DNA from: Saccharopolyspora shandongensis
GTDB lineage: Bacteria; Actinomycetota; Actinomycetes; Mycobacteriales; Pseudonocardiaceae
Assembly (NCBI RefSeq): GCF_900106995.1
Contig: NZ_FNOK01000014.1
Coordinates: 62,001-126,000 of the forward strand
Length of the DNA: 64,000 nucleotides
Direction of reading: 5' to 3'
Positions 41,719 through 59,263 of the stretch are shown here, piece by piece. How positions within the stretch are numbered: position 1 is the stretch's first letter; the number at the start of each line of letters is the position of its first letter. A program made the translations under genes and the position numbers. The notes under the pieces were generated by a model. That model saw nothing but the letters and a program-made list of their open reading frames with translations, was not told where the DNA came from and did not search any database.

Positions 41719-41732
41719 ACCAAATGCTTGCT
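41719..41732. promoter_or_regulatory. KstR2-type box before fadD3
   Basis: ACCAAATGCTTGCT matches AnCAAGnnCTTGnT at all but one position (A for G at position 6). It is 24 bases from the fadD3 start. Confidence 0.75.
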
Positions 41733-41832
41733 AGGTGATCCTAGCGGCGGGTGCGCCCGCAGACCAGGCCTTGCGCGGCGCGGGACCGGCGTGCCGCGGC
41801 GGATGCGCGGGTGCGGCTGTGGCAGACTGTTG

Positions 41833-41846
41833 GCCAAACGCTTGTT
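41833..41846. promoter_or_regulatory. KstR2-type box before kstR2
   Basis: GCCAAACGCTTGTT matches the KstR2 palindrome with two departures, 39 bases before the regulator start. It fits autoregulation. Confidence 0.65.
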
Positions 41847-41884
41847 GTTGTGGGGGATTCGCGGTCTGCGGGAAGGAAGGCGAG

Positions 41885-42523
41885 ATGGCGACGAGGACCC
41901 GGCCGGGGTCGGCCAAGCGCGGTGCGGCCTCGGCAGGAGGCGGCAGCGGCTCCGATCGGCGGAGCCAGCTGCTGAGCATCGCCGCGACGCTGTTCGCCAC
42001 TAGAGGGTACGCCGAGACCACTGTCCGGGACATCGCGGACGAGGCGGGCATCCTCTCGGGCAGCCTCTACCACCACTTCAGCTCGAAGGAGGCGATGCTC
42101 GACGAGATCCTGCGGGACTTCCTGTCCGCCCTGCGTGAGCGGTTCCGCAAGATCGAGGAGGACAGCGACGACCCCCGCGCGGCGCTCGACGAGCTGATCG
42201 TCGCGTCCTTCGAGGCCATCTCCGCGACCCCGCACGCGGTCGCGCTCTACCAGACCCAGGTGGTGGCGCTCGCCCGCCAGCCCGGCTTCGAGTACGTCGG
42301 CGAGTACAGCCGGGAGATCGAGAAGATCTGGCTGCGGCTGCTGGTCGCCGGGCAGAAGGCCGGGATCTTCCGCGCCGACGTCGACATGAACATCACCTAC
42401 CGGTTCATCCGCGACACCGTGTGGTCGTCCGTGCGCTGGTACCGCCCTCGCGGCAAGTACAAGCCGGAGGCCATCGCCAAGCAGTACCTCCACGTCCTCT
42501 ACGGCGGCCTCCTCTCTAGCTAG
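41885..42523 (+). CDS. kstR2: KstR2-like TetR-family repressor
   Basis: A 212-residue TetR regulator. The HTH (about 28-72) reads LLSIAATLFATRGYAETTVRDIADEAGILSGSLYHHF in the usual layout, with the phrase AGILSGSLYHHFSSKE strongly matching mycobacterial KstR2. The C-terminal YRFIRDTVWSSVRWYRPRGK likewise mirrors KstR2 (YRFIRDTTW.SVRWYRP). KstR2 senses HIP-CoA and represses the C/D-ring catabolic genes (known). ATG 41885 follows GGAAGGAAGG. It is divergent from fadD3; boxes fitting AnCAAGnnCTTGnT sit before both genes and before five further transcription units. Confidence 0.9.
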   Translation: MATRTRPGSAKRGAASAGGGSGSDRRSQLLSIAATLFATRGYAETTVRDIADEAGILSGSLYHHFSSKEAMLDEILRDFLSALRERFRKIEEDSDDPRAALDELIVASFEAISATPHAVALYQTQVVALARQPGFEYVGEYSREIEKIWLRLLVAGQKAGIFRADVDMNITYRFIRDTVWSSVRWYRPRGKYKPEAIAKQYLHVLYGGLLSS

Positions 42524-42547
42524 GCCCGCACTCGTAGCTGCAGTTGC

Positions 42548-42582
42548 CCGCGGGGCTGACGGTCTCCCAGTCAGCCCCGCGG
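42548..42582 (+). terminator. Hairpin after kstR2
   Basis: CCGCGGGGCTGAC (42548-42560) pairs with GTCAGCCCCGCGG (42570-42582) around a 9-base loop, 25 bases after the regulator stop. Confidence 0.75.
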
Positions 42583-42738
42583 TTCTGCGTTGGTGGACGG
42601 CCCGGTGTCGGTGGCACCGGCGCCTGGGCTGAAGTAAGTGTTCTCGCCGACCTGATCTGGTCGTGCCCGGCGCGGGGATTCCACGCGCTCGTCGAGCAGG
42701 AACTCCTCCCTCGTCCGCCTTGGACGCCTGCCTAATCA

Positions 42739-42752
42739 AGCAAGCAATTGCT
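42739..42752. promoter_or_regulatory. KstR2-type box before SDR remnant
   Basis: AGCAAGCAATTGCT departs from AnCAAGnnCTTGnT at one position. It lies before a truncated SDR frame, so it now appears to drive no intact gene directly. Confidence 0.6.
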
Positions 42753-42812
42753 AGGTTGATTGATCCAGGAGGTGGTCGACCACGGCTACGGCACGGGGCG
42801 ACCCGGGCCGGC

Positions 42813-42941
42813 ACTCCGCTGGGTCGGCTGGCCGACCCGGACGAGCAGGCCGGCGCCATCGAGTTCCTGCTCCTGGACTCTCCCTTCGTCACCGGCGTCT
42901 GCCTGCCGGTCGACGGCGGTCGGACGGCAGTGGGGAAGTGA
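42813..42941 (+). pseudogene. SDR C-terminal remnant
   Basis: An open frame ending at 42941 gives TPLGRLADPDEQAGAIEFLL then DSPFVTGVCLPVDGGRTA, the last 40 residues of a typical short-chain dehydrogenase. No cofactor motif or active site precedes it. A KstR2-type box 60 bases upstream suggests the promoter and the 3-prime end survive from a deleted regulon member. Confidence 0.75.
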
Positions 42942-43076: not shown

Positions 43077-43090
43077 ACCAAGCGCTTGCT
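43077..43090. promoter_or_regulatory. KstR2-type box before SDR-esterase-BVMO operon
   Basis: ACCAAGCGCTTGCT fits AnCAAGnnCTTGnT at every fixed position, 29 bases before the SDR start. Confidence 0.82.
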
Positions 43091-43118: not shown

Positions 43119-43859
43119 GTGACGGAGCAGCTGGTGGACTTGCGGGACAAGGTCGTCTTCATCACCGGTGCCGCTCAAGGACAGGGCGCCGTGCACGCCA
43201 GGACGCTCGCGAGGCTCGGGGCCGACGTGGTGCTCGCCGACCTGGACCAGGGCGCGGTCGCTGCGGTCGCTGCGGAGCTCGACGTGAAGACCCTCGCCCT
43301 GGAACTGGACGTGCGGAGCAAGAGCGCGTGGGCCGAGGCGATGCGGCGCGCTCGGGCCGAGTTCGGCCGGGTCGACGTGCTCGTCAACAACGCGGGGTTC
43401 TACGGCTTGGCCCCGCTGGCGGCGCTCGAGGAGGACCACCTCGCGCGGGCGCTGGACGTCAACCTGGTCGGCCCGATCCTCGGGATGCAGGCCGTGCTCC
43501 CGCTGATGCGCGACCGGGGCGGCTCGATCATCAACGTCGCCTCGACCGCGGGGCTCACGGGGTTCGCCGGTGGGATCGGGTACGGCGCCTCGAAGTGGGG
43601 CCTGCGCGGGGCGAGCAAGTCGGCGGCCAAGGAGCTCGGCGAGTTCGGGATCCGGGTCAACTGCATCTGCCCCGGCGCGATCGACACCGCGATGATCTCG
43701 GAGGAGACCAGGGCGGGCGGCGGCGCGGTGGCGAACCAGCCGATCCCGCGGGCCGGTGCGCCCGCGGAGGTGTCCGCGCTCGTGGCGTTCCTCGCCGGTG
43801 ACGCGAGCAGCTACTGCACCGGGCAGGACTTCGTGATCGACGGCGGCCAGACGATCTGA
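43119..43859 (+). CDS. SDR-family hydroxysteroid-dehydrogenase-like enzyme
   Basis: A 246-residue SDR of the 3-alpha/20-beta-hydroxysteroid dehydrogenase type. TGAAQGQGAVHAR (about 16-28), NNAGFYG, NVASTAGLTG and YGASKWGLRGASK (Tyr and Lys) are present; IDTAM and the C-terminal FVIDGGQT are usual. The GTG at 43119 follows GAGGGAT; an ATG at 43110 is closer to the site than normal. It is first of three genes (SDR, esterase, monooxygenase) behind a KstR2-type box, suggesting oxidation of a hydroxyl to the ketone used by the monooxygenase. Confidence 0.87.
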   Translation: MTEQLVDLRDKVVFITGAAQGQGAVHARTLARLGADVVLADLDQGAVAAVAAELDVKTLALELDVRSKSAWAEAMRRARAEFGRVDVLVNNAGFYGLAPLAALEEDHLARALDVNLVGPILGMQAVLPLMRDRGGSIINVASTAGLTGFAGGIGYGASKWGLRGASKSAAKELGEFGIRVNCICPGAIDTAMISEETRAGGGAVANQPIPRAGAPAEVSALVAFLAGDASSYCTGQDFVIDGGQTI

Positions 43860-43869
43860 GGAGGAGAAC

Positions 43870-44814
43870 GTGTTCGACGCAGAGGTCGCGGCGGTCATCC
43901 GGTCGCTCGACGCGGGATTCCCGAAGGTCGAGGAGATGACGGGACCGGAGGCGCGGGCGGCGATCGCGGCGCGGCGGCAACCGGTGGGCAATCGGGATGA
44001 TGTGGCGCGCACCGAGGACCGCGAGATCCCCGGGCCCGGCGGTGGCGTGCCCGTCCGCCTGTACTTCCCGCACCAGCGAGGTGACAGACCGTTGCCGGTC
44101 GTCGTCTTCTGCCACGGCGGCGGGTTCGTGTTCTGCGACATCGAGTCGCACGACGCGTTCTGCCGCGAGCTGTCGGGGCGGACGTCGTCGGTGGTGGTCT
44201 CGGTGGACTACCGGCTCGCGCCCGAGCACAAGGCGCCCGCCGCCGCCCTCGACGCCTACGCCGCGCTGACCTGGGCCGCCGAGAACGCCAGTGCGCTCGG
44301 CGGAGACCCGGGCCGGCTGCTGATCGCCGGCGACAGCGCGGGCGGGAACCTCGCCGCCGCCGCCTGCCTGATGGCCAGGGACAACGGCGGGCCCGCGGTG
44401 GCCGGGCAAGTGCTGATCTACCCCGTGCTCGACCCGTCGTGCGACACCGGCAGCTACCGCGAGTACGGCACCGGTTACGGGAACACCAGGGCCGCCATGG
44501 AGTGGTACTGGCGCCAGTACCTGCCGGCGGACGGCGTGGCCGGGCCCCGGCACCAGGTCGTCCCGCCCGCCGCGGACACCTTGCGCGGCCTGCCGCCCGC
44601 CGTCGTCGTCACCGCGGGCCTGGACCCGCTGTCCGACGAGGGAGGGGCGTATGCGGCCGCGCTCGCCCGGGACGGAGTTCCGGTGACGCACCGGCACTAT
44701 CCGGGCCTGTTCCACGGGTTCCTGACCATCATGTCCCTGCAGGCCGGCCGGTCGGCCCGCGATCTGCTGTGGCACGACCTGTGCGCAGCCACGAAGCAAG
44801 GAGCAACGTCTTGA
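43870..44814 (+). CDS. Hormone-sensitive-lipase-family alpha/beta hydrolase
   Basis: A 314-residue esterase. FCHGGGFVFCD near 84-94 gives the HGGG oxyanion motif; GDSAGGNLAAA near 157-167 holds the nucleophile Ser; the acid Asp and His lie in GLDPLSDEG and HGFL. It starts 10 bases after the SDR stop, and its stop overlaps the next gene start. In this operon it would hydrolyse the ester or lactone that the Baeyer-Villiger enzyme makes. The substrate is inferred from gene order only. Confidence 0.88.
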   Translation: MFDAEVAAVIRSLDAGFPKVEEMTGPEARAAIAARRQPVGNRDDVARTEDREIPGPGGGVPVRLYFPHQRGDRPLPVVVFCHGGGFVFCDIESHDAFCRELSGRTSSVVVSVDYRLAPEHKAPAAALDAYAALTWAAENASALGGDPGRLLIAGDSAGGNLAAAACLMARDNGGPAVAGQVLIYPVLDPSCDTGSYREYGTGYGNTRAAMEWYWRQYLPADGVAGPRHQVVPPAADTLRGLPPAVVVTAGLDPLSDEGGAYAAALARDGVPVTHRHYPGLFHGFLTIMSLQAGRSARDLLWHDLCAATKQGATS

Positions 44815-46424
44815 CCATCGGAGCTCACAGCGCGGTGCGCGACGTCCTGGTCGTCGGCGCCGGATTCGCCGGTCTGTACGCCGTGCACGCGTTCCGGCGA
44901 GCCGGACTCGACGTGATCTGCCTCGAAGCAGGCGAGGACGTCGGCGGCACGTGGTTCTTCAACCGCTATCCCGGCGCCCGCTGCGACGTGGAGAGCATCG
45001 ACTACTCGTACTCGTTCGACGAGGACCTGCAGCGCGACTGGGTGTGGAGCGAGCGCTACGCGACCCAGCCGGAGATCCTCTCCTACATCCACCACGTCGC
45101 GGACCGGTTCGACCTGCGCCGGCACATCGAGCTGGACAAGCGGGTCGTGGCCGCGAACTTCGACGAGCACGCGTCGCGGTGGGAGGTGCGCACCGAGGAC
45201 GGCGACGAGTACGCCGCGCGGTACGTCCTGTTCGCCACCGGTTCGCTGTCGGCCCTGAACAAGCCGGACATCCCCGGCGCCGACACCTTCGCCGGCGAGA
45301 CCTACTTCACCGCGCGCTGGCCGGAGCCCGGCCCGTCGCTGCGGGGCAAGCGCGTCGGCATCATCGGCACGGGCTCGTCGTCGGTCCAGTCGGTGCCGAT
45401 CCTCGCCGGCGAGGCCGACTCGCTCACCGTGTTCCAGCGCACGCCGAACTACAGCGTGCCCGCGCTGAATCGGCAGCTCACCGACGCCGACCAGCGCCGC
45501 ATCCGCGAGGAATACCCGGCGCGGCGGACGAAGGCCCGCATGAGCGGCGGCGGTTCGCCGCACCAGGCGCACCCGAAGCGCGCGGCGGAATGCACCCCGG
45601 AAGAGCGCGAGGCCGCGCTGGAGGCCGGGTGGCGCAACGGCGGTGTGCTGTACGGCAAGACCTTCCCCGACCAGTTCACCGACATCGAGGCGAACGACTT
45701 CGCGCGCGAGTTCGCGGAGCGGAAGATCCGGCAGATCGTCGCGGACCCGCGCACCGCCGAGGACCTGATCCCGACCGACCACCCCATCGGGACCAAGCGG
45801 ATCTGCACCGACTCCGGGTACTTCGAGACGTTCAACCTGGACAAGGTCGAGCTGGTCAACCTGCGCCGGGAACCGATCACGCGGATCACCGCCGCCGGCA
45901 TCGAGACCAGCGCCGGGCTCCGCGAACTGGACGTGCTGGTCTACGCCACCGGTTTCGATGCGATGACCGGTGCGCTCACCCGGATCGACATCACCGGCCC
46001 GCGTGGCGACCGGATCAAGGACGCGTGGGCCGAGGGGCCGGTCACCTACCTCGGCGTGCAGATCCCCGGCTTCCCCAACCTGTTCACCGTCAACGGCCCC
46101 GGCGCGCCGTCGGTGCTGTCCAACATGGTGCTGACCGCGGAGCAGCAGGTCGACTGGCTGGCCGAGCTGGTCCGGCACGCCGACGAGACCGGCGCCGCCC
46201 AGGTGGAAGTGCGCGACGATGCCGCGGTGAAGTGGACCGATCACGTCCAGCAAGCCGCGGACGCCACGCTGTTCCCGCGGGCCAACTCCTGGTACCTCGG
46301 GGCGAACATCGAGGGCAAGCCGCGCCGGTTCATGCCCTACGTGGCAGGGCTGGGCGCCTACCGCGAGCGCTGCGAGGCGATCAAGGCCGACGGCTACGAG
46401 GGATTCGTGTTCACGGCTCGCTGA
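44811..46424 (+). CDS. Baeyer-Villiger-type flavin monooxygenase
   Basis: A 537-residue class B flavoprotein. GAGFAGLYAV near 17-26 binds FAD, GGTWFFNRYPGARCDVES follows, and GTGSSSVQ near 184-191 binds NADPH. The BVMO fingerprint FxGxxxHxxxW appears as FAGETYFTARW, with Phe in place of His; the last Trp is kept. The TTG start overlaps the esterase stop (TTGA) and has AAGGAG upstream, a rare start codon. Steroid-oxidising monooxygenases of this class insert oxygen next to a ring or side-chain ketone. Order SDR, esterase, monooxygenase suggests alcohol to ketone to ester to acid plus alcohol. Confidence 0.87.
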   Translation: MTIGAHSAVRDVLVVGAGFAGLYAVHAFRRAGLDVICLEAGEDVGGTWFFNRYPGARCDVESIDYSYSFDEDLQRDWVWSERYATQPEILSYIHHVADRFDLRRHIELDKRVVAANFDEHASRWEVRTEDGDEYAARYVLFATGSLSALNKPDIPGADTFAGETYFTARWPEPGPSLRGKRVGIIGTGSSSVQSVPILAGEADSLTVFQRTPNYSVPALNRQLTDADQRRIREEYPARRTKARMSGGGSPHQAHPKRAAECTPEEREAALEAGWRNGGVLYGKTFPDQFTDIEANDFAREFAERKIRQIVADPRTAEDLIPTDHPIGTKRICTDSGYFETFNLDKVELVNLRREPITRITAAGIETSAGLRELDVLVYATGFDAMTGALTRIDITGPRGDRIKDAWAEGPVTYLGVQIPGFPNLFTVNGPGAPSVLSNMVLTAEQQVDWLAELVRHADETGAAQVEVRDDAAVKWTDHVQQAADATLFPRANSWYLGANIEGKPRRFMPYVAGLGAYRERCEAIKADGYEGFVFTAR

Positions 46425-46860: not shown

Positions 46861-47832
46861 TCAGGACGCCGTGATCGCCGCGAGGACGCGGGCGCGGTGG
46901 GTCGACGTGGTGCCCCAGGCCGCGATCAGAGCGCGCACCTTCGTGATCCACAGGCCGAGATCGTGCTCCAGCGTGTAGCCGATCGCGCCGTGCACCTGCA
47001 GCGCCGTGCGGGAAGCGAGGTAGGCCGCGTCGGAGGCGGCGATCTTGGCCGCCGACACGTCCCGCGCGGCATCCGCCGACCCCACCGACAGCGCCGCGCC
47101 GTGCAGCAACGGCCGGGCGAAGTCGAGCGCCACGCGGACATCGGCGAGCGCGTGCTTGAGGGCCTGGAACTCGCCGATCGCCCGGCCGAACTGACGCCGG
47201 TTCTTGGCGTACTCCACGGCCTCCTCGAGCAGGCGCTCACCGGCGCCGAGCAGCTGGGCGGAGCAGGCGAGCGCGGCCGCGTCGAGCGCGGCGGCGGCCA
47301 CGCCGGTCGGCAGCGTGGCGAGCCGGTCCTTCGCGGTCACCTCGAAGAGCCTGCGGGTGTTGTCCACGGAACGCCGCAGCGATCCCGCCTCCGCGAGGTG
47401 CAGCTCGTCGCCCTCGACCAGCAGGACGCGGTCGGCGACATCGGCGTCGAGCGCGAACGGCGTGGTGGGCGGCGCGGCGAGCGTCACCACCCGGCTTCCG
47501 GCGGCCAGCTCCGCGAGCGATTCCGGGTCGGCCGCCTGCAGCAGTGCGGGCGCGACGACGACGGACTCGACGTACGGCCCGGGCACGAGGTGGCGGCCGA
47601 GCTGCTCGAACGCGACGACCACGTCGATCGGCGCCGCCCCGAGCCCGCCTGCGTCCTCCGGCACGCACAGGGCGTGCACGCCGAGATCGGCCAGGCGCTG
47701 CCAGATCTTCCGCCCGGCCGCCGCATCGCCCTCGCCCCACGCGCGGGCCGCGTCCGGCGCCCCCGCGGTGCCGAGGAAGTCGTCCAGCGACCGGGAGAAG
47801 GCGAGCTGTTCGTCGTTCAACTCGAACCTCAT
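46861..47832 (-). CDS. Acyl-CoA dehydrogenase, shorter partner of a heteromeric pair
   Basis: A 323-residue acyl-CoA dehydrogenase. GVHALCVPEDAGGLG in the N-terminal part and YAKNRRQFGRAIGEFQALKHALADV in the C-terminal part are family landmarks, followed by HGAIGYTLEHDLGLW. It is shorter than the roughly 390 residues typical of homotetrameric enzymes. Adjacent long and short dehydrogenase genes form alpha2beta2 enzymes in mycobacterial steroid pathways (known). Its ATG overlaps the stop of the long partner by four bases. Confidence 0.87.
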   Translation of the reverse strand: MRFELNDEQLAFSRSLDDFLGTAGAPDAARAWGEGDAAAGRKIWQRLADLGVHALCVPEDAGGLGAAPIDVVVAFEQLGRHLVPGPYVESVVVAPALLQAADPESLAELAAGSRVVTLAAPPTTPFALDADVADRVLLVEGDELHLAEAGSLRRSVDNTRRLFEVTAKDRLATLPTGVAAAALDAAALACSAQLLGAGERLLEEAVEYAKNRRQFGRAIGEFQALKHALADVRVALDFARPLLHGAALSVGSADAARDVSAAKIAASDAAYLASRTALQVHGAIGYTLEHDLGLWITKVRALIAAWGTTSTHRARVLAAITAS

Positions 47833-48998
47833 CGGGCTCGGCCTCCCTTCGGCAGGCCGAGCAAGCGCTCGGCCACGATGTTGCGCTGGATCTCGTTCGT
47901 CCCCGCGTAGATCGGCCCCGACAGCGAGAACAGATAGCCGTCCAGCCACGCGCCGTCGGCCGCCGCGTCCGGGCCGCGCAGCTCGGACTCCGGCCCGAGG
48001 AGATCCAGCGCGGTCTCGTGCAGCGCGACGTCGAGCTGGGACCAGAACAGCTTGTTCACGCTGCCGTGCGCGCCGATGTCGCCACCGCCGGATAGCCGCG
48101 TGACCGTGCCCCACGTGTAGAGCCGGTAGGCCTGCGCCGCGATCCACGAGTCGACCACGCGGTCGCGCAGGTGCGGCTGGTCCGCGCCGCGTTCGCGCCA
48201 CAGCGCCACCAGCCGGTCGGCCGCCGCGCAGAACCGGCCCGGCGAGCGCAGCGACAGGCCGCGCTCGTTGCCTGCGGTGCTCATGGCCACCCGCCAGCCG
48301 TCGCCCGGCGCGCCGAGCACGTCGGCGTCGGGCACGAACACGTCGTCGAAGAAGATCTCCGCGAAGCCGGGGTGCCCGTCGAGCTGGGGGATCGGCCGGA
48401 TCGTGATGCCGTCGGCGTTCAGCGGGAACAGGAAGTAGGTCAGCCCGCGGTGCCGCTCGGCGTCCGGGTCCGAGCGGAACAGGCCGAACCCGCGGTCGGC
48501 GTAGGGCGCCCGCGAGCTCCACGTCTTCTGCCCGTTGAGCACCCAGCCGCCGCGTGCCTCGTCGCGCGCGGCCGTGCTGCGGATCGACGCTAGGTCGCTG
48601 CCGGCCTCGGGCTCCGACCATGCCTGGGCCCAGATCTCGGTGCCGTTGGCCATCGACGGCAGGTACCGGTCCCGCTGTTCCTGCGTGCCGTGCCCGAAGA
48701 TGATCGGGGCGAGCAGCGAGATCCCGTTCTGCGCGACGCGCACCGGCGCGCCGCTGCGGTAGTACTCCTCCTCGAACAGGACCCACTCGATCATCGAGGC
48801 ATCCCGGCCGAAGTACTCCGCCGGCCACGAGACGACCGACCAGCGGGCCTCGGCGAGGGTGGCCTCCCATTCGCGCCGGGCCGCGAACCCCTCGGCGGAA
48901 TCCAGTGGCGGCAGCGGCTTCGCCGGGACGTTGTCGTGCAGCCAGGCCCGGGCTTCGTCGCGGAAGGCCAGCTCCTGCTCGGTGAAGTCGATGTTCAT
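47829..48998 (-). CDS. Acyl-CoA dehydrogenase, longer partner of a heteromeric pair
   Basis: A 389-residue acyl-CoA dehydrogenase. WAQAWSEPEAGSDLASIRS near 124-142 binds FAD and substrate, LNGQKTWSS follows, and the end GPIYAGTNEIQRNIVAERLLGLPKG is the usual FAD-binding tail. It is coupled by four-base overlaps both to its short partner and to the crotonase gene upstream. Resemblance is to FadE enzymes of the KstR2 regulon; the individual orthologue is not clear. Confidence 0.88.
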   Translation of the reverse strand: MNIDFTEQELAFRDEARAWLHDNVPAKPLPPLDSAEGFAARREWEATLAEARWSVVSWPAEYFGRDASMIEWVLFEEEYYRSGAPVRVAQNGISLLAPIIFGHGTQEQRDRYLPSMANGTEIWAQAWSEPEAGSDLASIRSTAARDEARGGWVLNGQKTWSSRAPYADRGFGLFRSDPDAERHRGLTYFLFPLNADGITIRPIPQLDGHPGFAEIFFDDVFVPDADVLGAPGDGWRVAMSTAGNERGLSLRSPGRFCAAADRLVALWRERGADQPHLRDRVVDSWIAAQAYRLYTWGTVTRLSGGGDIGAHGSVNKLFWSQLDVALHETALDLLGPESELRGPDAAADGAWLDGYLFSLSGPIYAGTNEIQRNIVAERLLGLPKGGRAR

Positions 48999-51068: not shown

Positions 51069-52220
51069 GTGACCGAGGCCTACATCGTCGACGCCGTCCG
51101 CACTCCCGTCGGGCGGCGCGGGGGAGCGCTCGCCGGGATGCACTCGGCGGACCTCGGCGCGCACGCCATCCGCGCGCTCGTGGATCGCACCGGGGTGGAT
51201 CCCGGCGCGGTCGACGACGTCATCTTCGGCTGCTGCGACACGATCGGTTCCCAGGCCGGGGACCTCGCGCGGACCGCGTGGCTGGTGGCGGGCCTGCCCG
51301 ACCACGTGCCGGGCGTGACCGTCGACCGGCAGTGCGGGTCGAGCCAGCAGGCGGTCCACTTCGCGGCGCAGGGCGTGCTCTCCGGCACCGCCGACCTCAT
51401 CGTGGCGGGTGGGGTGCAGAACATGTCCGCCATCCCGATCTCGGCCGCGATGCTCGTCGGCCAGCAGTACGGCTTCAGCACGCCCTTTGCCGAGTCGCCC
51501 GGCTGGCTCAAGCGCTACGGCGACCAGGAGGTGTCGCAGTTCCGCTCGGCCGAGATGATCGCCGAGCACTGGAACATCTCGCGGGCCGACATGGAGGCCT
51601 ACGCCTACGAGAGCCACCAGCGGGCCATCGCCGCGATCGACGGGGGCCGGTTCGCCGCGGAGATCGCACCGGTCGATGGCTTCGACACCGACGAGGGGCC
51701 CCGGCGCGACACCAGCCTGGAGAAGATGGCGGGCCTGCAGCCCGTCGCGGGCGGTGAGCGGATCACGGCGGCCGTCGCGTCGCAGATCAGCGACGCCTCG
51801 GCGGCGGTCCTGATCGCCTCGCCGCGCGCCGTCGAAGAGCACGGCCTGACCCCGCGTGCGCGCATCCACCACATCTCGGTGCGTGGCGCCGATCCGGTCT
51901 GGATGCTGACCGGCCCCATCCCGGCGACCAGGCACGCGCTGGAGCGGACCGGGATGACGATCGACGACTTCGACCTGTTCGAGGTCAACGAGGCGTTCGC
52001 GTCCGTGGTGCTGGCGTGGGCGAAGGAGACCGGCGCGGACCTGGCCAGGACGAACGTCAACGGCGGCGGGATCGCGCTCGGCCATCCGATCGGGGCGACG
52101 GGCGCCCGGTTGATGACGACGATGCTGCACGAGCTGGAGCGCCGCGGCGGGCGGTTCGCGTTGCAGACGATGTGCGAGGGCGGCGGCCAGGCCAACGTCA
52201 CGATCATCGAACGCCTGTAG
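51069..52220 (+). CDS. fadA6: FadA6-like thiolase
   Basis: A 383-residue thiolase. VDRQCGSSQQAV near 86-97 holds the acylated Cys; NEAFA and NVNGGGIALGHPIGATG (landmark GGGIALGHP) hold the active-site His; the second Cys lies in MCEGGGQANV. Start and spacing fit: GTG 51069 with CGAGGAG upstream. It is downstream of ipdF on the same strand with a palindromic repeat between. In KstR2 regulons FadA6 cleaves the ring-opened C/D product (known); this gene is the likely equivalent. Confidence 0.85.
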   Translation: MTEAYIVDAVRTPVGRRGGALAGMHSADLGAHAIRALVDRTGVDPGAVDDVIFGCCDTIGSQAGDLARTAWLVAGLPDHVPGVTVDRQCGSSQQAVHFAAQGVLSGTADLIVAGGVQNMSAIPISAAMLVGQQYGFSTPFAESPGWLKRYGDQEVSQFRSAEMIAEHWNISRADMEAYAYESHQRAIAAIDGGRFAAEIAPVDGFDTDEGPRRDTSLEKMAGLQPVAGGERITAAVASQISDASAAVLIASPRAVEEHGLTPRARIHHISVRGADPVWMLTGPIPATRHALERTGMTIDDFDLFEVNEAFASVVLAWAKETGADLARTNVNGGGIALGHPIGATGARLMTTMLHELERRGGRFALQTMCEGGGQANVTIIERL

Positions 52221-52796: not shown

Positions 52797-52810
52797 ACCA
52801 AGCGCTTGCT
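52797..52810. promoter_or_regulatory. KstR2-type box before SDR-acyl-CoA dehydrogenase operon
   Basis: ACCAAGCGCTTGCT, identical to the box at 43077, fits the KstR2 palindrome exactly. It is 32 bases before the SDR start. Confidence 0.85.
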
Positions 52811-52841: not shown

Positions 52842-53735
52842 ATGACGGAGCACGACGGGCCGACGGCCGGCATCTGCGCGGGACGGGTCGCCATCATCAC
52901 CGGTGCGGGGCAGGGCCTCGGCCGGGCGCACGCCCTCGAATTCGCGCGCCACGGCGCCAAGGTCGTCCTCAACGACATGTCACCGTCCGTCGAGGACGTC
53001 GCCGCGGAGGTGCGGGCCGCGGGAGGCGAGGCGGTCGCGGTCGTGGCCGACATCGCCGACTGGACGGCCAGCAAGGGCGTGATCGACCTCGCCGTGAGCA
53101 CGTTCGGCGGGCTCGACACCCTCGTCAACAACGCGGGCATCAACCGGGACCGGATGCTGGTCAACATGAGCGAGTCCGAGTGGGACCAGGTCATGACCGT
53201 CAACCTCAAGGGGCACTTCGCCCCGCTGCGCCACGCGGTCGCGTGGTGGCGGGACCAGGCCAAGGCGGGCAACCGGATCGCCGCCCGGGTGGTCAACACG
53301 TCGTCCGGGGCCGGGCTGATGGGCAGCGTCGGCCAGGGGAACTACGGCGCGAGCAAGGCCGGCATCGCCGCGCTGACCCAGGTCGCCGCGGTCGAGTTCG
53401 CCCGCTACGGCGTGGTCGTCAACGCCATCGCCCCGTCGGCGCGGACCCCGATGACGGAGGCGGTCTTCGCGGAGCGGATGGCCAAGCCCGCCGACGGCTT
53501 CGACGCGATGGATCCGGCGAACGTTTCCAGCCTCGTGGTGTGGTTGGGCAGCGACGAGGCCACCACGACCGGCCGGGTCTTCGAGATCGAAGGCGGCGAG
53601 GTCTCCCTCGCCGACGGGTGGCGGCACGGCCCGCCCGCGGTGAAGAACGGCCGGTGGGAGCCGCAGGAGCTGACGGCGGTCATCGCCGACCTGGTCGCGA
53701 AGGCCGAACCGCCGACACCCGTGTACGGGGCCTGA
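52842..53735 (+). CDS. SDR-family oxidoreductase (Rv3548c-like)
   Basis: A 297-residue SDR of the multifunctional-beta-oxidation type. ITGAGQGLGRAHALEFARHGAKVVLND in pieces (TGAGQGLGRAHA, VVLND), VADIADWTASKG, NNAGINRDRML, LKGHFAPLRHA and YGASKAG are present. The RDRM and LKGHF phrases are typical of 17-beta-HSD4-like 3-hydroxyacyl-CoA dehydrogenases and of Rv3548c in the KstR2 regulon (known). ATG 52842; the next gene starts two bases after its stop. Confidence 0.86.
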   Translation: MTEHDGPTAGICAGRVAIITGAGQGLGRAHALEFARHGAKVVLNDMSPSVEDVAAEVRAAGGEAVAVVADIADWTASKGVIDLAVSTFGGLDTLVNNAGINRDRMLVNMSESEWDQVMTVNLKGHFAPLRHAVAWWRDQAKAGNRIAARVVNTSSGAGLMGSVGQGNYGASKAGIAALTQVAAVEFARYGVVVNAIAPSARTPMTEAVFAERMAKPADGFDAMDPANVSSLVVWLGSDEATTTGRVFEIEGGEVSLADGWRHGPPAVKNGRWEPQELTAVIADLVAKAEPPTPVYGA

Positions 53736-53737
53736 CG

Positions 53738-54895
53738 ATGAGCACCGGTGATGAGGAATTCCGCGCCGAAGTGCGTGAATGGCTGGCCGAAGAGCTGACC
53801 GGCGAGTTCGCCGACGTCGTCGGCCTCGGCGGTTCGGGCCGGGAGGACGAGGCGCTCGACCGCAGGCTGGCGTGGGAGCGCCGGCTCGGTTCGGGCGGCT
53901 GGATCGGCCTCGGCTGGCCCGTCGAGCACGGCGGCCGCGGTGCTTCCCTGGCGCAGCAGGTGATCTTCCACGAGGAGTACGCGAAGGCAGGCGGGCCGGG
54001 GCGGTTGCTGCACATGAGCGAGCAGCTCGTCGGTCCGACGATCCTCGCGTTCGGCTCCGACGAGCAGAAGCGGCGCTTCCTGCCCGGAATCCTGTCGGGA
54101 GAGGCGCTCTGGTGCCAGGGCTACTCCGAGCCTGGTGCGGGATCCGACCTCGCAGGCGTCCGCACGCGCGCGGTGCGCGAAGGGGACGAGTACGTCCTGA
54201 ACGGGCAGAAGGTGTGGACCTCGCTCGCGCACGTTGCCGACTGGTGCTTTGTGCTCGCGCGCACCGACCCGGGGTCGAGCCGGCACGCGGGCCTCTCCTA
54301 CCTGCTGGTCCCGATGGACCAGCCGGGCGTCGAGGTCCGGCCGATCCGGCAGATCACCGGCACCAGCGAGTTCAACGAGGTGTTCTTCGACAACGCCCGC
54401 ACGCCGGTGGCCAACCGGGTCGGCGACGAGGGCGACGGCTGGCGGGTCGCGATGGGCACGCTCGGCTTCGAGCGCGGCGTCGCCACGCTCGGCCAGCAGA
54501 TCGGCTTCCAGCGCGAACTCGACCACGTCGTCGAACTCGCCAGGGAAGGCGGCGCGCTGGCCGATCAGGAGCTGCGCGGGCGCATCGTGCAGTCGTGGAT
54601 CGACCTGCGGGTGATGCGCTACACCGCGGTGTCGACGCTGCGATCGGCAGGCAGTTCGGTGTCCGGGTTCGAGGCGTCGCTGTCCAAGCTGCAGTGGGCG
54701 ACCTGGCACCGGGACCTGGGCGAGCTGGCCGTCGACGTCGTCGGGCCGGCGGCGCTCACCGTCGACGAACCCTACGACCTCTCGCCCGAGCAGACGTCGT
54801 TCCTGTTCAGCCGGTCGGACACGATCTACGGCGGCTCGAACGAGATCCAGCGCAACATCATCGCCGAGCGCGTTCTCGGGCTGCCTCGCGGATGA
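53738..54895 (+). CDS. Acyl-CoA dehydrogenase (FadE30-like long partner)
   Basis: A 385-residue acyl-CoA dehydrogenase. GWPVEHGGRGAS, WCQGYSEPGAGSDLAGVRTR near 121-140, LNGQKVWTS and the tail DTIYGGSNEIQRNIIAERVLGLPRG are clear family features. It follows the SDR gene by two bases and is followed by a second, shorter dehydrogenase gene 13 bases on. Similarity is strongest to the FadE30 type, which oxidises HIP-CoA in mycobacteria (known); the equivalence is likely but not proven. Confidence 0.87.
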   Translation: MSTGDEEFRAEVREWLAEELTGEFADVVGLGGSGREDEALDRRLAWERRLGSGGWIGLGWPVEHGGRGASLAQQVIFHEEYAKAGGPGRLLHMSEQLVGPTILAFGSDEQKRRFLPGILSGEALWCQGYSEPGAGSDLAGVRTRAVREGDEYVLNGQKVWTSLAHVADWCFVLARTDPGSSRHAGLSYLLVPMDQPGVEVRPIRQITGTSEFNEVFFDNARTPVANRVGDEGDGWRVAMGTLGFERGVATLGQQIGFQRELDHVVELAREGGALADQELRGRIVQSWIDLRVMRYTAVSTLRSAGSSVSGFEASLSKLQWATWHRDLGELAVDVVGPAALTVDEPYDLSPEQTSFLFSRSDTIYGGSNEIQRNIIAERVLGLPRG

Positions 54896-54908: not shown

Positions 54909-56009
54909 GTGAGCGAGAACGAAGACCTGCGCGACGAGATGCGCAAGGCGGTCGCCGACTTCCTCCGCGCCGAGTCGGACCGGCGGGCGGCGATGGACGG
55001 CGACCACGGCTACGACCGGGCGCTCTTCAGGCGCGGCGTAGCGGATCTGGGGCTCGGCGGGCTCCCGGTGCCGGAGCGGTTCGGCGGGCTGGGGCTCGGG
55101 TTCGCCGAGGCCGCTGTGGTGATCGAGGAATTCGGGCGCGCCGTCGCGCCGTCACCGGTGCCGGACACGCTGATCGCCGGGACCCTGCTGAGCGAGTCGG
55201 CCGACGCGGGAACGCCCGGCGAGCCCGGCGAGGCCTTGCTCGCGAGGCTCGCCGAGGAGCCGGTCGCGATCGCCGTGGCCGGCCTCACCGAGACCCCCGG
55301 TCGCGGCCCGGTCGTGGCCGACGGCGGAGGGCTGTCGGGCGTGGTCGGTGCGGTCCCGCACGGGGCGACGGCGGACGTGTTGCTGGTGATCAGCGGCGAA
55401 GGGGACGACGCCGCAGTCCATCTCGTGGACCCCGAGCAGCCGGGCGTGACCCGCACGCCGCGCCGGGCGCTGGACCACACGCGCCGGCTCGCGGACGTCG
55501 AGCTCACCGGTGCTCGCGCGGATCGACTGTCGCCCGAGGGCGATGACGGGGCCCTCGCACGCCGGCTGGTCGCCCTCGCCCGGATCGCGTTGGCCGCCGA
55601 GTCCGCCGCCGCAGCGCAGGCGTGCCTCGACGAGACCGTGGGCTACCTCAAGGTGCGGGAGCAGTTCGGGCGGGCGATCGGCTCGTTCCAGGCGCTCAAG
55701 CACCGGTGCGCCGATCTCGCGGTCGCGGTCCACGGCGCCGTCGCCACGGCGCAGTACGCGGTGCGGTTCGCCATCACCGGCGAGGCGACCGACGAGCTGG
55801 GCGACGACCTGCCGACCGTCGCCGCGGTGGCGAAGGTGGTCGGCGCGGACACCCTGATGCGGGTGGCCGCGGATTGCCTGCAACTGCACGGCGGCGTCGG
55901 GTTCACCTTCGAGCACGACCTGCACCTGTACTTCAAGCGGGGCAAGGCCAATCAGCTGCTCGCCGGGTCCGGCCCGGCGCTGCGGCGGCAGCTGGCGGCA
56001 CGTCTGTGA
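54909..56009 (+). CDS. Acyl-CoA dehydrogenase (shorter partner)
   Basis: A 366-residue acyl-CoA dehydrogenase with a variable middle. GLGGLPVPERFGGLGLG, YLKVREQFGRAIGSFQALKHRCADLAV in pieces (REQFGRAIGSFQ) and HGGVGFTFEHDLHLYFKRGK are family features. Together with the upstream gene it resembles an alpha2beta2 pair. GTG start 54909 lies 13 bases after the previous stop with GGAGTACGCG upstream. Confidence 0.86.
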   Translation: MSENEDLRDEMRKAVADFLRAESDRRAAMDGDHGYDRALFRRGVADLGLGGLPVPERFGGLGLGFAEAAVVIEEFGRAVAPSPVPDTLIAGTLLSESADAGTPGEPGEALLARLAEEPVAIAVAGLTETPGRGPVVADGGGLSGVVGAVPHGATADVLLVISGEGDDAAVHLVDPEQPGVTRTPRRALDHTRRLADVELTGARADRLSPEGDDGALARRLVALARIALAAESAAAAQACLDETVGYLKVREQFGRAIGSFQALKHRCADLAVAVHGAVATAQYAVRFAITGEATDELGDDLPTVAAVAKVVGADTLMRVAADCLQLHGGVGFTFEHDLHLYFKRGKANQLLAGSGPALRRQLAARL

Positions 56010-56083: not shown

Positions 56084-56896
56084 ATGGCCGATTCCGGGAA
56101 TTCCAACGATCTTTCGATCGCCGCTGCGGTCGACCGCCTCAGCAGGGCCGAGCGGACGGGAATCCCCACCGAGCCGGTGCGGGACGTTCTCGGCGACACC
56201 GACATCGCTCTCGCCTACGCGGTGCAGCGGGAGCTCGCACGGCGGCGTGAAGCCAGGGGAGCGGTGGCGGTGGGCAGGAAGATCGGGCTGACCTCGCCCG
56301 CCGTCCAGCGGCAGATGGGCGTCGAACAGCCCGACTTCGGAGTGCTCTTCGCCGACATGGACGTTTCGGGCCGGGCCGTGATCCCGTTCCACCGGCTGCT
56401 GCAGTCGAGGGTCGAGGCGGAGATCGCCTTCGTGCTGAAGGCGGACCTGGCCGACGGCGAGCTCGACGAGGCGCAGGTCCGCGCCGCGGTCGACTACGCC
56501 GTGCCGGCGCTGGAGATCGTCGACAGCCGGATCGCCGGCTGGGACATCGCGATCACCGACACGGTCGCGGACAACGCCTCCAGCGGGCTGTTCGTGCTGG
56601 CCGACCACCGGCTCACGCTCGACGAGTTCGAGCCGCGGGAGGCGGTGATGCGGCTGTACGCCGACGACGAGCTGGTCTCGGAGGGCGACGGGGCCGCGTG
56701 CCTCGGCGATCCGCTCGCCGCGCTCGCCTGGCTGGCCCGCACGGCGCTGTCCTTCGGCGATCCGTTGCGAGCCGGGCAGATCGTGCTCTCGGGCGCACTG
56801 GGCCCGCTGGTCCCGGTCGCACCGGGCACGCGGTTCCGCGCCGTCATCGATCCGCTCGGCGAGGTCGCCACCACGTTCTCCGGGGAAGAAGCATGA
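56084..56896 (+). CDS. 2-hydroxypenta-2,4-dienoate hydratase-like (MhpD/HsaE family)
   Basis: A 270-residue fumarylacetoacetase-fold hydratase. GRKIGLTSPAVQRQMGVEQPDFG near 67-89 is characteristic of MhpD/HsaE enzymes; EAEIAFVL supplies acidic metal ligands. In cholesterol catabolism HsaE hydrates the five-carbon dienoate (known), usually with an aldolase and dehydrogenase that are absent here. The ATG at 56084 has no ribosome site; a GTG at 56006 overlapping the previous stop (GTGA) is an alternative giving 26 extra residues. Confidence 0.83.
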   Translation: MADSGNSNDLSIAAAVDRLSRAERTGIPTEPVRDVLGDTDIALAYAVQRELARRREARGAVAVGRKIGLTSPAVQRQMGVEQPDFGVLFADMDVSGRAVIPFHRLLQSRVEAEIAFVLKADLADGELDEAQVRAAVDYAVPALEIVDSRIAGWDIAITDTVADNASSGLFVLADHRLTLDEFEPREAVMRLYADDELVSEGDGAACLGDPLAALAWLARTALSFGDPLRAGQIVLSGALGPLVPVAPGTRFRAVIDPLGEVATTFSGEEA

Positions 56897-56997: not shown

Positions 56998-57600
56998 CTA
57001 CGCCAGGTATCGAGCGAGGAGCAGCCGGGCCGCCAGCCGCATGTCGGCCTCCGCCTGCTCGGCCGTCGTCTTGCGGCTGAGGCTGGAGACGAGCACTCCC
57101 CACCAGCTGAACACGAGCAGGCGGACGGTGCTCCGGTCTTCCTCGCTGGGCGCGGACTTCCCGAGCGTGCGGAGGATGGCGCGGGAGAGCGCCGAGTCGT
57201 TGTCCGGATACCCGCTCGGATCCGTGGTGTAGCTGGCGGCGGTGCTCTGCATCATCGCCGAGCACAGCCGGGGCCGGCTGAGCAGCTCACGGCTCAACAC
57301 CACCAGGACCTCGCCGATGTCGGTGACGACGTCGGCGCCGCCGGTCGGCCACAGCTGCTCGACGAACTTGCCGAGCTGCGCCTCGAACACCGCGGTGAAC
57401 AGGTGCGTCTTGGACGGGAAGTAGCGGTAGACCGTCCCGATCGCGACACCGGCGTCCTTGGCGACCTCGTGCATCTGCACGCGGTCGAAGTCCGCCGTGG
57501 CGCCGAGTTCCGCGGCGGCGTCGAGGATGCGATCGCGGCGCGCGACCTGGCCTTTCGACACCGGCGATGCGGGCGGCCGCACATCGGCGATTCTGGCCAC
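56998..57600 (-). CDS. TetR-family regulator (KstR-like)
   Basis: A 200-residue TetR protein. RRDRILDAAAELGATADFDRVQMHEVAKDAGVAIGTVYRYFPSK, read as landmarks FDRVQMHEVA and GVAIGTVYRYFPSK, resembles KstR more than KstR2. The C-terminal half (SAMMQSTAAS, VRLLVFSWWGVLVSS) also has the KstR arrangement. GTG start with AGGGGGAAC. It converges on the hydratase gene. A TCCGGA-TGT-TCCGGA dyad lies at 57625-57639 upstream. Its targets are unknown. Confidence 0.8.
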   Translation of the reverse strand: MARIADVRPPASPVSKGQVARRDRILDAAAELGATADFDRVQMHEVAKDAGVAIGTVYRYFPSKTHLFTAVFEAQLGKFVEQLWPTGGADVVTDIGEVLVVLSRELLSRPRLCSAMMQSTAASYTTDPSGYPDNDSALSRAILRTLGKSAPSEEDRSTVRLLVFSWWGVLVSSLSRKTTAEQAEADMRLAARLLLARYLA

Positions 57601-57724
57601 TGTTCCCCCTGTTCTAGCCGCACGTCCGGATGTTCCGGATTCAGGATAGAGGCGCGTGGTTCGCGCGCCGGACGTCGGATCTGGTGGCTGGAGGCTGTGT
57701 TGAGTGTTGTGGTGTGAGGTGTGG

Positions 57725-57846
57725 TATCGCGGGGTTTTGTCTTTGAAGCGGCGCAGCCGCTTAGCCCACCCTCGCAGCTTGCACCGCTGCGGGTTCGCAG
57801 GGGGCTTCTCGCGAGGACAGCCCCGACGTGGTGAATTGGCATTCAT
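57725..57846 (-). repeat. Dispersed ~110-base intergenic repeat, copy 2
   Basis: The reverse complement is closely similar to 52455-52575, including the AACCCGC, GCGGTGCAAG, GGTGGGCTA and CTGCGCCGC blocks. It occupies the 337-base gap (57601-57937) between the TetR and IclR genes, which otherwise shows no gene. Confidence 0.65.
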
Positions 57847-57937
57847 GAGTCGGGGATCCCACAGCGAGAAGGCGACAGCAACTCCCGCAGGGGGCCGCTG
57901 CCCGCACCGCCACGCAGAGCGAGTTCGGAAACAGGTT

Positions 57938-58813
57938 CTAGAGCCAGTCGCCGCCGTCTCCGACCGTGAGGAAGCGGGTCATCGCCTCGCTCGACCACGT
58001 CTGCTGGGGAGCCGAAAGGTCGGGCCGCGACAGGACGGGCCCGGCGAAGAACTCGTTCGACACGGCGTGCGCAGCCTGCATGAGGAGGGGCGCGACCCGC
58101 TCCATGGGCGTGTGCACGTCGCCCACCAGGGAGATCGCCGCCGCGGGACCTTCCTGGCCGCGCAGCGCGATGCCGACGCAGCTGACGTGGGCGAAGCACT
58201 CTCCGCGTTCGAAGGCCAGGCCGCGACGGCGCCTGATGCGATCCAGTTCCTGGTGCAGGATGCCCAGATCGCCGATGCTGCGCGGGGTCCGGCGGACCGC
58301 GTCGGCGTACTCGGTGTCGATCCGTTCCGGGGGCAGCCAGGCGAGCATCGCCTTGCCCAGCGCCGTGCAGTGCGCCGGAGCCCGGCCGCCGACGCGCGAG
58401 GGCACGTCGACCGCGGACCGCCCGCCCACCTTGTCGAGGTAGTACACCTCGGTGCCGGAGAGGACCGCCAAGTGCACGACCAGCTTGGTGCGGATCGCCA
58501 GGTCGTGGAGCACTGGTGCCGCCGCGCTGCGGAGGGCGTTCTGCCCGATTTCGCGGCCGCCGAGCCCGAGCGCTCGTTTGCCGAGCCGGTATCCGGACGT
58601 CGTGTGGTCGAGCCATCGCAACCGCACCAGCTGGTCGAGGATGCGGTGGGCCGTCGAGCGGGGGAGCCGGGTCCGCCGGGTCACCTCCTCCAGGTTCCGA
58701 CGGGTGTGCGGGTGCTCGAACAGGTCCAGGATCAGCGTCATCCGCTCCACCATGGACGGCGGTACGGGCTCCTCGACTGCCGACTCGGCATTCATCCTCA
58801 ACGTTGAGGTCAT
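57938..58813 (-). CDS. IclR-family transcriptional regulator
   Basis: A 291-residue regulator. Residues 20-85 form the IclR winged helix (RMTLILDLFEHPHTRRNLEEVTRRTRLPRSTAHRILDQL, landmarks RNLEEVTRRTRLPRSTAHRI). The C-terminal effector domain has APAHCTALGKAMLAWLP and a cysteine-containing AHVSCVGIALRG. The ATG at 58813 follows GGGAGG. The DegT-like stub upstream on the same strand ends 36 bases before it. It may govern the adjoining SDR and KstD-like genes. Confidence 0.87.
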   Translation of the reverse strand: MTSTLRMNAESAVEEPVPPSMVERMTLILDLFEHPHTRRNLEEVTRRTRLPRSTAHRILDQLVRLRWLDHTTSGYRLGKRALGLGGREIGQNALRSAAAPVLHDLAIRTKLVVHLAVLSGTEVYYLDKVGGRSAVDVPSRVGGRAPAHCTALGKAMLAWLPPERIDTEYADAVRRTPRSIGDLGILHQELDRIRRRRGLAFERGECFAHVSCVGIALRGQEGPAAAISLVGDVHTPMERVAPLLMQAAHAVSNEFFAGPVLSRPDLSAPQQTWSSEAMTRFLTVGDGGDWL

Positions 58814-58849
58814 GCCACACCTCCCGCGACCGGCAAAATGGAATTGATT

Positions 58850-59116
58850 CTAAAACAAGCTAGCAGCGACTCGGGTCGGCGAAAAGTGCCTGACCGATGA
58901 CGGCGGCCATCCCGCCCGAATGATCCCGTCCGGGCGGGATGGCTGCCCGATCGACGTGTCAGCGCGCGGCTCGGGTGCCGGCCGGTACAGGTCGGCGAAC
59001 CGGCTTTCCATCTCGTCGATCTTCAGCGCGAGCGGGCCGCCGCGCAGCACCTCCAGCACGGCGTTGATCTCCGCCTTGTCGTGCACGCTCCGTGTGTAGG
59101 TGACACGTGTGACCAT
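58850..59116 (-). pseudogene. Short frame resembling N-terminus of a DegT-type aminotransferase
   Basis: An 88-codon frame with a good GGAGG site before its ATG at 59116. The first 45 residues (YTRSVHDKAEINAVLEVLRGG, ALKIDEMESRFADLY) resemble the start of DegT/DnrJ/EryC1 aminotransferases, which run about 380 residues. The rest is unlike any protein I know and Arg/Ser/Pro-rich. I read it as a truncated gene, though a real small protein is possible. A KstR2-type box lies 134 bases upstream. Confidence 0.45.
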
Positions 59117-59249
59117 GGAAACCTCCGGTTGTCGTGATGGGGCCGGGATCGGGCGGATCGCCGGACGTCGGCCGCGGCCCGTCGGCGCCGGTCGTCGTGG
59201 CGACCGCCCGCGAACTCTTCGGCCGCGATGGGCGGAGCGCAATGCTTGC

Positions 59250-59263
59250 ACCAAGCGCTTGAT
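59250..59263. promoter_or_regulatory. KstR2-type box between divergent units
   Basis: ACCAAGCGCTTGAT fits AnCAAGnnCTTGnT exactly. It lies 218 bases before the SDR at 59481 and upstream of the leftward stub. The 364-base gap 59117-59480 holds no other feature. Confidence 0.8.

Follow-up and report, generated by a model that had tools for sequence, protein, structure and literature searches.

The window analysed here comprises 64,000 nucleotides of Saccharopolyspora shandongensis (positions 62001-126000 of contig NZ_FNOK01000014.1, called C88 below), from a genome of 10.15 Mb in 134 contigs that is 98.55% complete. It holds a cluster of steroid degradation genes in which an initial annotation had described seven KstR2-type palindromes, each in front of a distinct transcription unit, and had read them as a steroid C/D-ring regulon around a KstR2 homologue encoded at 41885. 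Our analysis confirmed that the palindromes exist and that they exceed chance expectation by far. The explanation that we favour, with a probability of roughly 0.8, is that they are operators of the KstR2 type, that a KstR2/HIP module was acquired and took the place of much of the native one, and that the operator of the acquired module spread to genes acting on the A/B rings of the steroid. It is drawn from results at the level of sequence, namely the sites and their excess, the gene content, the presence of two KstR2s, their tree and their distribution.

The genes and operators are listed in window coordinates, together with the matrix scores explained below; transcription units are those suggested by gene order and spacing, with no transcripts behind them. 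The gene names of the Mycobacterium triplex KstR2 locus used for comparison are assigned by the gene order of M. tuberculosis (Mtb), partly checked against Table 1 of PMC5380842.

38879..39766, minus strand: F420-dependent LLM oxidoreductase (TIGR03619; NCBIfam 270.6 bits, cut-off 166.9)
39801..39814: operator, 35 bp before the LLM oxidoreductase gene; score 23.0
40088..41695, minus strand: FadD3-type acyl-CoA ligase (HIP-CoA synthetase); NF005801 643 bits, cut-off 657; 46% to M. triplex FadD3
41719..41732: operator in the fadD3/kstR2 intergenic region; 1 mismatch; score 21.8; 14/14 in S. elongata
41833..41846: weak second site in the fadD3/kstR2 intergenic region; 2 mismatches; score 3.4; 13/14 in S. 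elongata
41885..42523, plus strand: KstR2-type TetR repressor (PDB 2ibd, 4w1u, 4w97; trees)
42663..42941, plus strand: open reading frame (ORF) with a C-terminal stump of a short-chain dehydrogenase/reductase (SDR); last 41-48 codons 54-73% identical to an SDR in 10 Microbacteriaceae/Arthrobacter loci
42739..42752: strong operator before the truncated SDR gene; score 32.4; not kept in S. elongata
43077..43090: operator of the SDR-esterase-monooxygenase unit; exact; score 21.7; 14/14 in S. elongata
43119..43859, plus strand: SDR, first gene of that unit; NCBIfam SDR models, under cut-off
43870..44814, plus strand: LipP1-type esterase of the hormone-sensitive lipase family; NF058653 358.6 bits, cut-off 350
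44811..46424 (start uncertain), plus strand: Baeyer-Villiger monooxygenase (BVMO), closest to steroid monooxygenase; PDB 4aos 649 bits, 525 residues
46861..47832 (start by eye), minus strand: FadE32-like acyl-CoA dehydrogenase; 55% to M. triplex FadE32
47829..48998, minus strand: FadE31-like acyl-CoA dehydrogenase; 62% to M. triplex FadE31
48995..49864, minus strand: enoyl-CoA hydratase (EchA); NF006140 457 bits, cut-off 280
49886..49899: operator between the echA-fadE31-fadE32 and ipdF-fadA6 units; exact; score 35.5
49979..50782, plus strand: IpdF-like SDR; 61% to M. triplex IpdF
51069..52220, plus strand: FadA6-like thiolase; 67% to M. triplex FadA6
52797..52810: operator of the SDR-fadE30-acyl-CoA dehydrogenase-hsaE unit; exact; score 26.9; 14/14 in S. 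elongata
52842..53735, plus strand: Rv3548c-like SDR; 60% to the M. triplex protein
53738..54895 (start by eye), plus strand: FadE30-like acyl-CoA dehydrogenase; 61% to M. triplex FadE30; Pfam
54909..56009, plus strand: IpdE2/FadE33-like acyl-CoA dehydrogenase; NF050027 187 bits, cut-off 450; 35% to M. triplex FadE33
56084..56896 (start by eye), plus strand: HsaE-like 2-keto-4-pentenoate hydratase; NF008461 (general hydratase model) 284 bits, cut-off 350
56998..57657 (start uncertain), minus strand: KstR-like TetR regulator; KstR model 94 bits, cut-off 280
57938..58813, minus strand: IclR-type regulator, named by reading the sequence; several relatives encode similar proteins close to sites or KstR2
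59250..59263: operator before the SDR-kstD unit; exact; score 15.7; 22.2 in S. elongata
59481..60338 (start uncertain), plus strand: SDR; NCBIfam SDR models, under cut-off
60447..62168, plus strand: KstD, 3-ketosteroid delta-1-dehydrogenase; NF009479 976.7 bits, cut-off 793
65191, 69195 and 71921 (past the window, same numbering): operators before SnoaL-MFS-SDR genes (score 18.1), a mycofactocin-type SDR and kshA (26.1), and maoC with hsaA-hsaC (23.1)

The sites at 69195 and 71921 fall inside over-long ORF calls, so that the start codons there are to be corrected. The operator at 65191 is followed by a gene for a shikimate-transporter-like MFS protein (65979-67355 in window numbering), possibly the steroid importer of the cluster.

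Palindromes, background and conservation

The seven palindromes were found at the positions and with the mismatches originally given to them: relative to the 14-mer AnCAAGnnCTTGnT, those at 43077, 49886, 52797 and 59250 are exact, 41719 and 42739 are one letter off and 41833 is two off. The idea that each one fronts a transcription unit of its own did not hold, since a single intergenic region contains both 41719 and 41833, and no intact gene follows 42739; seven sites are therefore not seven units. Moreover, four operators had been missed, one in the window (39801) and three past its end (65191, 69195 and 71921), which extends the series about 8 kb beyond the window.

How far such a short pattern can be trusted depends on how it is counted. 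Allowing up to two mismatches, the window contains 35 matches against 6.4 expected, many of them intragenic and background-like. In the whole genome the exact 14-mer occurs 8 times, versus 6 for the reversed pattern that served as control, and five of the eight lie within 26 kb (C88:105077-131208, window 43077 to 69208), where simple arithmetic predicts 0.02. Two other exact copies, on contigs C43 and C52, were judged by eye to lie inside ORFs and were set aside. The symmetric form ANCAARYRYTTGNT was found at 8 places versus 3 for its control; six are in the cluster, one precedes a fadA6-like gene on C64, the contig with the sterol genes, and one is at C125:19905. This last palindrome is about 106 bp before an SDR-like ORF, and another, an exact 14-mer at C61:258027, lies between ORFs and before a CoA-transferase-like one (both read by eye); each may be a distant member of the regulon. 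One-mismatch matches, with 252 in the genome against 280 for the control, are background, and hence carry no weight without other evidence.

For a 26-bp matrix, the exact 14-mers in the loci of 79 non-Saccharopolyspora relatives (of 80) supplied 47 distinct contexts, a training set left unfiltered in which some chance matches may persist; the matrix was run over 115 kb of C88 and also gave scores for sites on C64 and C56. Its consensus, TTACCAAGCAAGCGCTTGCTTGGTAA, extends the 14-mer in a manner consistent with the flanking letters of the probes used, and of the motifs tabulated, by Kendall et al. (PMC3068626). Ten sites score from 35.5 (49886) down to 15.7 (59250), and the next-best match in the 115 kb, with shifted overlaps set aside, reaches 5.3. 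A synthetic sequence of 10.15 Mb with the same dinucleotide statistics gave no score of at least 18, one of at least 16 and two of at least 14. The site at 42739 was at one point taken for noise, being lost in S. elongata, an idea dropped after it scored 32.4. The weak site at 41833 scores 3.4 here and 13.1 in its S. elongata counterpart.

The initial annotation had named a background frequency of the 14-mer across unrelated genes as an observation that would speak against it; such a frequency is what one-mismatch matches have in this genome, and not what the exact and matrix-scored sites have. In the loci of 80 relatives that carry KstR2 (1,563,542 bases) there are 136 exact 14-mers against none for the reversed control, and 82 against 29 with one mismatch. 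When eight regions were aligned with S. elongata, 125 of 135 site columns were identical compared with 2029 of 2755 other intergenic columns (Fisher p 7.6e-8, 42739 being scored as lost and each gap as a difference); in the region of greatest divergence (272/607 identical) the site at 52797 is intact (14/14), and those at 39801 and 71921 are letter-identical. Outside the genus, sites at fadD3/kstR2, at echA/ipdF or echA/fadE30, and before the genes labelled SDR_a, SDR_3548 and LLM recur in at least one of Streptomyces, Actinomadura, Microbacterium and Arthrobacter; S. xiaopingdaonensis has one at the same place before the LLM gene (score 20.9). A site stands beside an echA of the window type in 16 out of 30 examined stretches, a count that includes the own genome and S. 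elongata; in the Actinomadura group this site has two mismatches to the 14-mer. That the palindromes are mere chance matches to a short pattern has thus a negligible probability: one-mismatch matches do sit at background and 41833 scores like background, but the exact and matrix-scored sites bunch in this cluster, and other genera have them at the same genes. Chance is ruled out for the set as a whole; it may account for 41833, and 59250 taken alone is insufficient against it.

Two KstR2 copies and the C/D-ring genes

The protein encoded at 41885-42523 is a KstR2 homologue, as originally proposed. The PDB entries 2ibd, 4w1u and 4w97 match it over about 190 residues (E 8.9e-61, 3.8e-56 and 4.4e-56), the next other regulator following at E 4.3e-20, while no NCBIfam model was reached above its cut-off. 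The last two entries are mycobacterial KstR2, and 2ibd, whose title reads 'possible transcriptional regulator', is the Rhodococcus KstR2. The helix ILSGSLYHHF of the window protein, taken as the recognition helix, is identical to that of M. triplex KstR2. Crowe et al. (2015) reportedly described Arg162 and Trp166 as ligand residues of KstR2; the RDTVW of the window protein, conserved as RDxxW in 80 of 82 rows of relatives, presumably occupies those positions. The kstR2 gene also carries the site at 41719 in its own promoter.

This regulator is the rarer of two KstR2s in the genome, and therefore not the sole possible binder of the sites. The second copy (C64:28790, 51% identical) lies some 2 kb away from the gene of a true KstR (332.9 bits against a cut-off of 280). 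Among 22 Saccharopolyspora genomes, 17 have a KstR2 (E 1e-40 or better), and the window type is found in two of them, the own genome and S. elongata, the latter with the closest named relative (97%). In a tree of 41 rows, the 17 Saccharopolyspora copies, that on C64 included, form one clade (100/99), whereas the window copy falls with those of Streptomyces, where its nearest relatives are, Actinomadura, Microbacteriaceae and Arthrobacter (98/95). With respect to mycobacterial KstR2 and under midpoint rooting, the window copy belongs to a sister clade (98/95), and the C64 copy and its genus clade join the mycobacteria on a short branch. An 82-row tree, from which two of 84 sequences were left out for a stop or shortness, is concordant. 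A TetR on C41 (34%) considered as a third KstR2 fell far outside the clade; this regulator (C41:98180) and one in S. xiaopingdaonensis (L014:19564) are distant KstR2-like TetRs, 34-38% identical to the window KstR2.

The expected C/D-ring genes do follow the sites: FadD3, FadE30, FadE31, FadE32, IpdF, FadA6 and the Rv3548c-type SDR are 46-67% identical to their counterparts of the M. triplex KstR2 locus, and the exact sites 49886 and 52797 precede genes of this kind. Other members lie elsewhere. A genome-wide search for CoA_trans (PF01144) gave no match on C88 or C64, and an IpdA orthologue (60% identical to M. triplex IpdA) is on C56, with a weak CoA_trans match beside it. The identity of that protein led us to reject as IpdAB the CoA-transferase pairs on C127, C61 and C45, whose best PDB match is glutaconate CoA-transferase. 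The echA20, ipdA and ipdC-like genes of C56 are 60-71% identical to the M. triplex locus, where the 470-residue ORF is called ipdC-like by position alone. Neither echA20 nor the ipdC-like gene is among the ORF calls of C88, although calls of this type overlooked echA20 on C56 and may have done so here as well; identity between EchA20 and the EchA of the window is 30%. In the gap between an Rv3549c-like gene and echA20, C56 has degenerate sites with scores of 10.5 and 14.7. Its interval 101735-142589 looks like a third steroid locus, with echA20, ipdA, the ipdC-like gene, a KstR-like TetR (119 bits) and another KshA.

Much of the native counterpart of the module appears to be gone. In all 15 other loci of the genus examined, kstR2 is found in an ipdC-like/kstR2/ipdF/fadE30 layout; the C64 copy and its S. 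elongata counterpart have none of these three neighbours, FadA6 being there instead. Likewise, at E 1e-105 a FadD3 was matched in 16 of the 22 genomes, with one of the window type in each of the own genome and S. elongata and a 47-53% type in 14 others, nine of whose ten examined loci carry an operator scoring at least 10. The FadD3 beside the window kstR2 was the only one detected in its genome at that threshold, 66 of 108 candidates being scored. As for the history of the module itself, the SDR whose C-terminus the stump at 42663-42941 matches is encoded in 10 Microbacteriaceae/Arthrobacter loci, at about 12.9-13.1 kb, where it is close to ipdA and ahead of SDR_a. The stump is probably what remained after a deletion took ipdAB out of the module; ipdAB and most of this SDR would have been lost after arrival, with the C56 copies serving instead.

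A/B-ring genes and the reach of the regulon

The description as a C/D-ring regulon captures the genes of the previous section and leaves aside those found behind other sites: SDR-kstD, kshA, hsaA-hsaC and the SDR-esterase-steroid monooxygenase unit. In addition, hsaE is located inside the fadE30 unit. A second KstD-like protein reaches 830 bits (cut-off 675; 468 bits to the 3-ketosteroid dehydrogenase of the PDB), and KshA matches PF19298. For the monooxygenase unit, S. xiaopingdaonensis shows an operator followed by SDR, LipP, BVMO and ipdC-like genes with alignment gaps of 21-48 bp, an order that ties the unit to KstR2 outside the genus Saccharopolyspora. Since the BVMO is closest to the steroid monooxygenase 4aos, the unit suggests that C21 steroids, progesterone for example, may be an entry substrate; the SDR, esterase and BVMO at 43119-46424 would make up a plausible route for removal of the progesterone side chain.

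Two further regulators are encoded between hsaE and kstD, a KstR-like TetR (56998-57657) and, next to it, an IclR-type gene. At 57625 there is an inverted repeat, TCCGGATGTTCCGGA, and near 57929, just before the TetR gene, a KstR-type sequence with one mismatch. The KstR-type motif TnnAACnnGTTnnA, searched with up to one mismatch, is absent from eight A/B-side regions (two of them overlapping), and neither this nor another shared motif for A/B promoters was found in the regions tested; the exact form of TnnAACnnGTTnnA occurs seven times in 95 kb of C64 and once in the 115 kb of C88, at a point remote from the cluster. KstR2-type sites are also found directly before IclR-type genes in S. triticisoli (L200:3221, score 20.2) and Microtetraspora (L156, position 31842 of the joined stretch, 26.4), whose products resemble the window IclR-type protein (50% and 41%).

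These data leave two alternatives to be weighed. One would restrict KstR2 to the C/D-ring, LLM and SDR-esterase-BVMO units, with kstD, kshA and hsaA-hsaC answering to the local TetR or IclR and their palindromes being weak or inherited by rearrangement. The A/B-side sites are indeed seen in two close genomes only, the TetR is a relative of KstR (94 bits) with its KstR-type sequence in front, the ksh promoters described for Rhodococcus ruber lack a KstR2 motif (PMC8228715), and the regulon table of Nocardioides simplex lists no A/B gene under KstR2 (PMC7807495). Nevertheless, the sites of kshA and hsaA reach 26.1 and 23.1 and are the same in S. elongata, the tested A/B-side regions gave no KstR-type motif, and TCCGGANNNTCCGGA, the other candidate repeat of the TetR, is confined to a single place in 115 kb; we consider this restriction unlikely. 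Somewhat less improbable, though still doubtful, is that the genus-type copy on C64 is the main repressor of the sites, or that both copies share them, the window copy being redundant or regulating only itself. The helix is the same in both proteins, and sites of the same class lie near the C64 gene, one before fadA6 (C64:26357, score 25.4) and a weak one at C64:28775 (3.8). Against it, the window copy retains the divergent fadD3/kstR2 layout (21 of the 27 rows of its clade) and a site in its own promoter, and the C64 copy has lost its usual neighbours.

The reading that we prefer, an acquired KstR2/HIP module whose operator reached the A/B-ring genes, has to bear several observations that weigh against it. 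The kstD, kshA, hsaA and SnoaL-MFS sites are present in the own genome and S. elongata alone, and with proteins about 95% identical these two are not independent witnesses. In Streptomyces, the kshA of S. antnestii and the kshA-hsaA pair of S. triticisoli, the two species with these genes in the stretches examined, have no operator, and a site before the gene labelled SDR_d in S. antnestii has no kstD labelled beside it. Several assignments are under their NCBIfam cut-offs, as those of HsaA (392.7 bits) and HsaC (342.7 bits, cut-off 450 each), HsaE, FadD3 and IpdE2, and the KstR-like TetR and the IclR-type regulator may control A/B genes. The score of 59250 is within reach of a rare background match, and the matrix, being trained on exact 14-mers, carries independent information in its flanks only. 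With ILSGSLYHHF common to both KstR2 copies, either of them may be the binder. In the 82-row tree the C64 copy sits on a long branch beside mycobacteria (94/83), and the root of the trees is the midpoint. For the loss of native ipdF and fadE30, the stretches covered are 95 kb on C64 and 80 kb on C56, and no more than 66 candidates per genome were scored when the genus was searched with the window FadD3.

With these points in mind, the palindromes would be operators of a KstR2-type TetR repressor, which by analogy would occupy them until released by HIP-CoA, the product of the FadD3 encoded alongside. We infer the binding, ligand and repression, as well as the acquisition and the direction of transfer. 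The window regulator and its C/D-ring genes may have arrived by transfer as an extra module and displaced much of what the genus had, leaving behind a genus-type KstR2 on C64, deprived of its usual neighbours, together with the ipdA, ipdC-like and echA20 genes of C56. In the own lineage the operator would also have come to front A/B-ring genes (SDR-kstD, kshA, hsaA-hsaC, and hsaE in the fadE30 unit) and the SDR-esterase-steroid monooxygenase genes. If functional, this arrangement would let a product of A/B-ring breakdown induce that same breakdown, from the end of the stage and not from its start. In its fullest form, the proposal is that the transferred module has taken the place of most of the native one and brought the A/B-ring genes under its control, so that the whole nucleus pathway (kstD, kshA, hsaA, hsaC, hsaE, BVMO/esterase and C/D ring) is induced by the late HIP-CoA and not by the entering steroid, with one operator class common to two KstR2 paralogues of different ancestry; we hold it tentatively, at somewhat less than even odds. 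Altogether, the initial interpretation is partly supported, right at its core and too narrow.

Comparison with known KstR2 systems

The accepted division of labour, in which KstR controls the side chain and the A/B rings and KstR2 the C/D rings, was established in mycobacteria and rhodococci, from which it was extended to Nocardioides. Kendall et al. described in 2010 three KstR2 motifs per genome in Mycobacterium and Rhodococcus and a 15-gene regulon with ipdAB, ipdC and echA20 (PMC3068626). The S. shandongensis cluster shares with it the TetR repressor, AnCAAGnnCTTGnT with similar flanks, fadD3, fadE30-32, ipdF, fadA6 and the Rv3548c-type SDR, and differs from that account in its roughly ten sites, the addition of A/B-ring genes and a BVMO unit, the two KstR2 copies, and the location of ipdA, ipdC-like and echA20 on another contig. 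N. simplex, like our species an actinobacterium outside the mycolata, has kstR2 adjoining fadD3 by adjacent locus tags, and KstR2 sites were predicted for 29 of its operons (PMC7807495); unlike here, its Table 3 places kstD, kshA and hsa under KstR, another motif (Acin) or no regulon, and none under KstR2 (PMC7807495). Leaving out subscription papers and the site list of N. simplex, the literature searched held no KstR2-type operators before kshA, kstD or hsa.

Within the genus, Saccharopolyspora hirsuta also has kstR and kstR2, three steroid clusters, ipdAB, ipdC, ipdF and fadE30, whereas its fadD3 is outside the clusters and its ipdF-fadE30 genes are in the sterol cluster; the accessible text of these accounts mentions neither KstR2 sites nor a second KstR2 (PMC8708139, PMC9782250). 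A further likeness is to the cholate cluster, a distinct set of steroid genes that includes kstD, kshA, hsa genes and a regulator of its own, and that is linked to KstR3 and not, as here, to a KstR2-type operator (PMC8708139, PMC7593942); the bile-acid cluster genes of N. simplex are described without KstR or KstR2 sites (PMC7593942). HIP-CoA is the effector of KstR2, and actinobacteria with several steroid pathways appear to finish them through a single HIP pathway (PMC5380842), a statement that agrees with the single FadD3 found here. Regulator and operator are of a known kind, while the make-up and the proposed history of the regulon are new: if true, a KstR2 operator before A/B-ring genes would alter the logic of induction, in what looks like a regulator that arrived with its target genes and left a native regulator behind with a shared operator.

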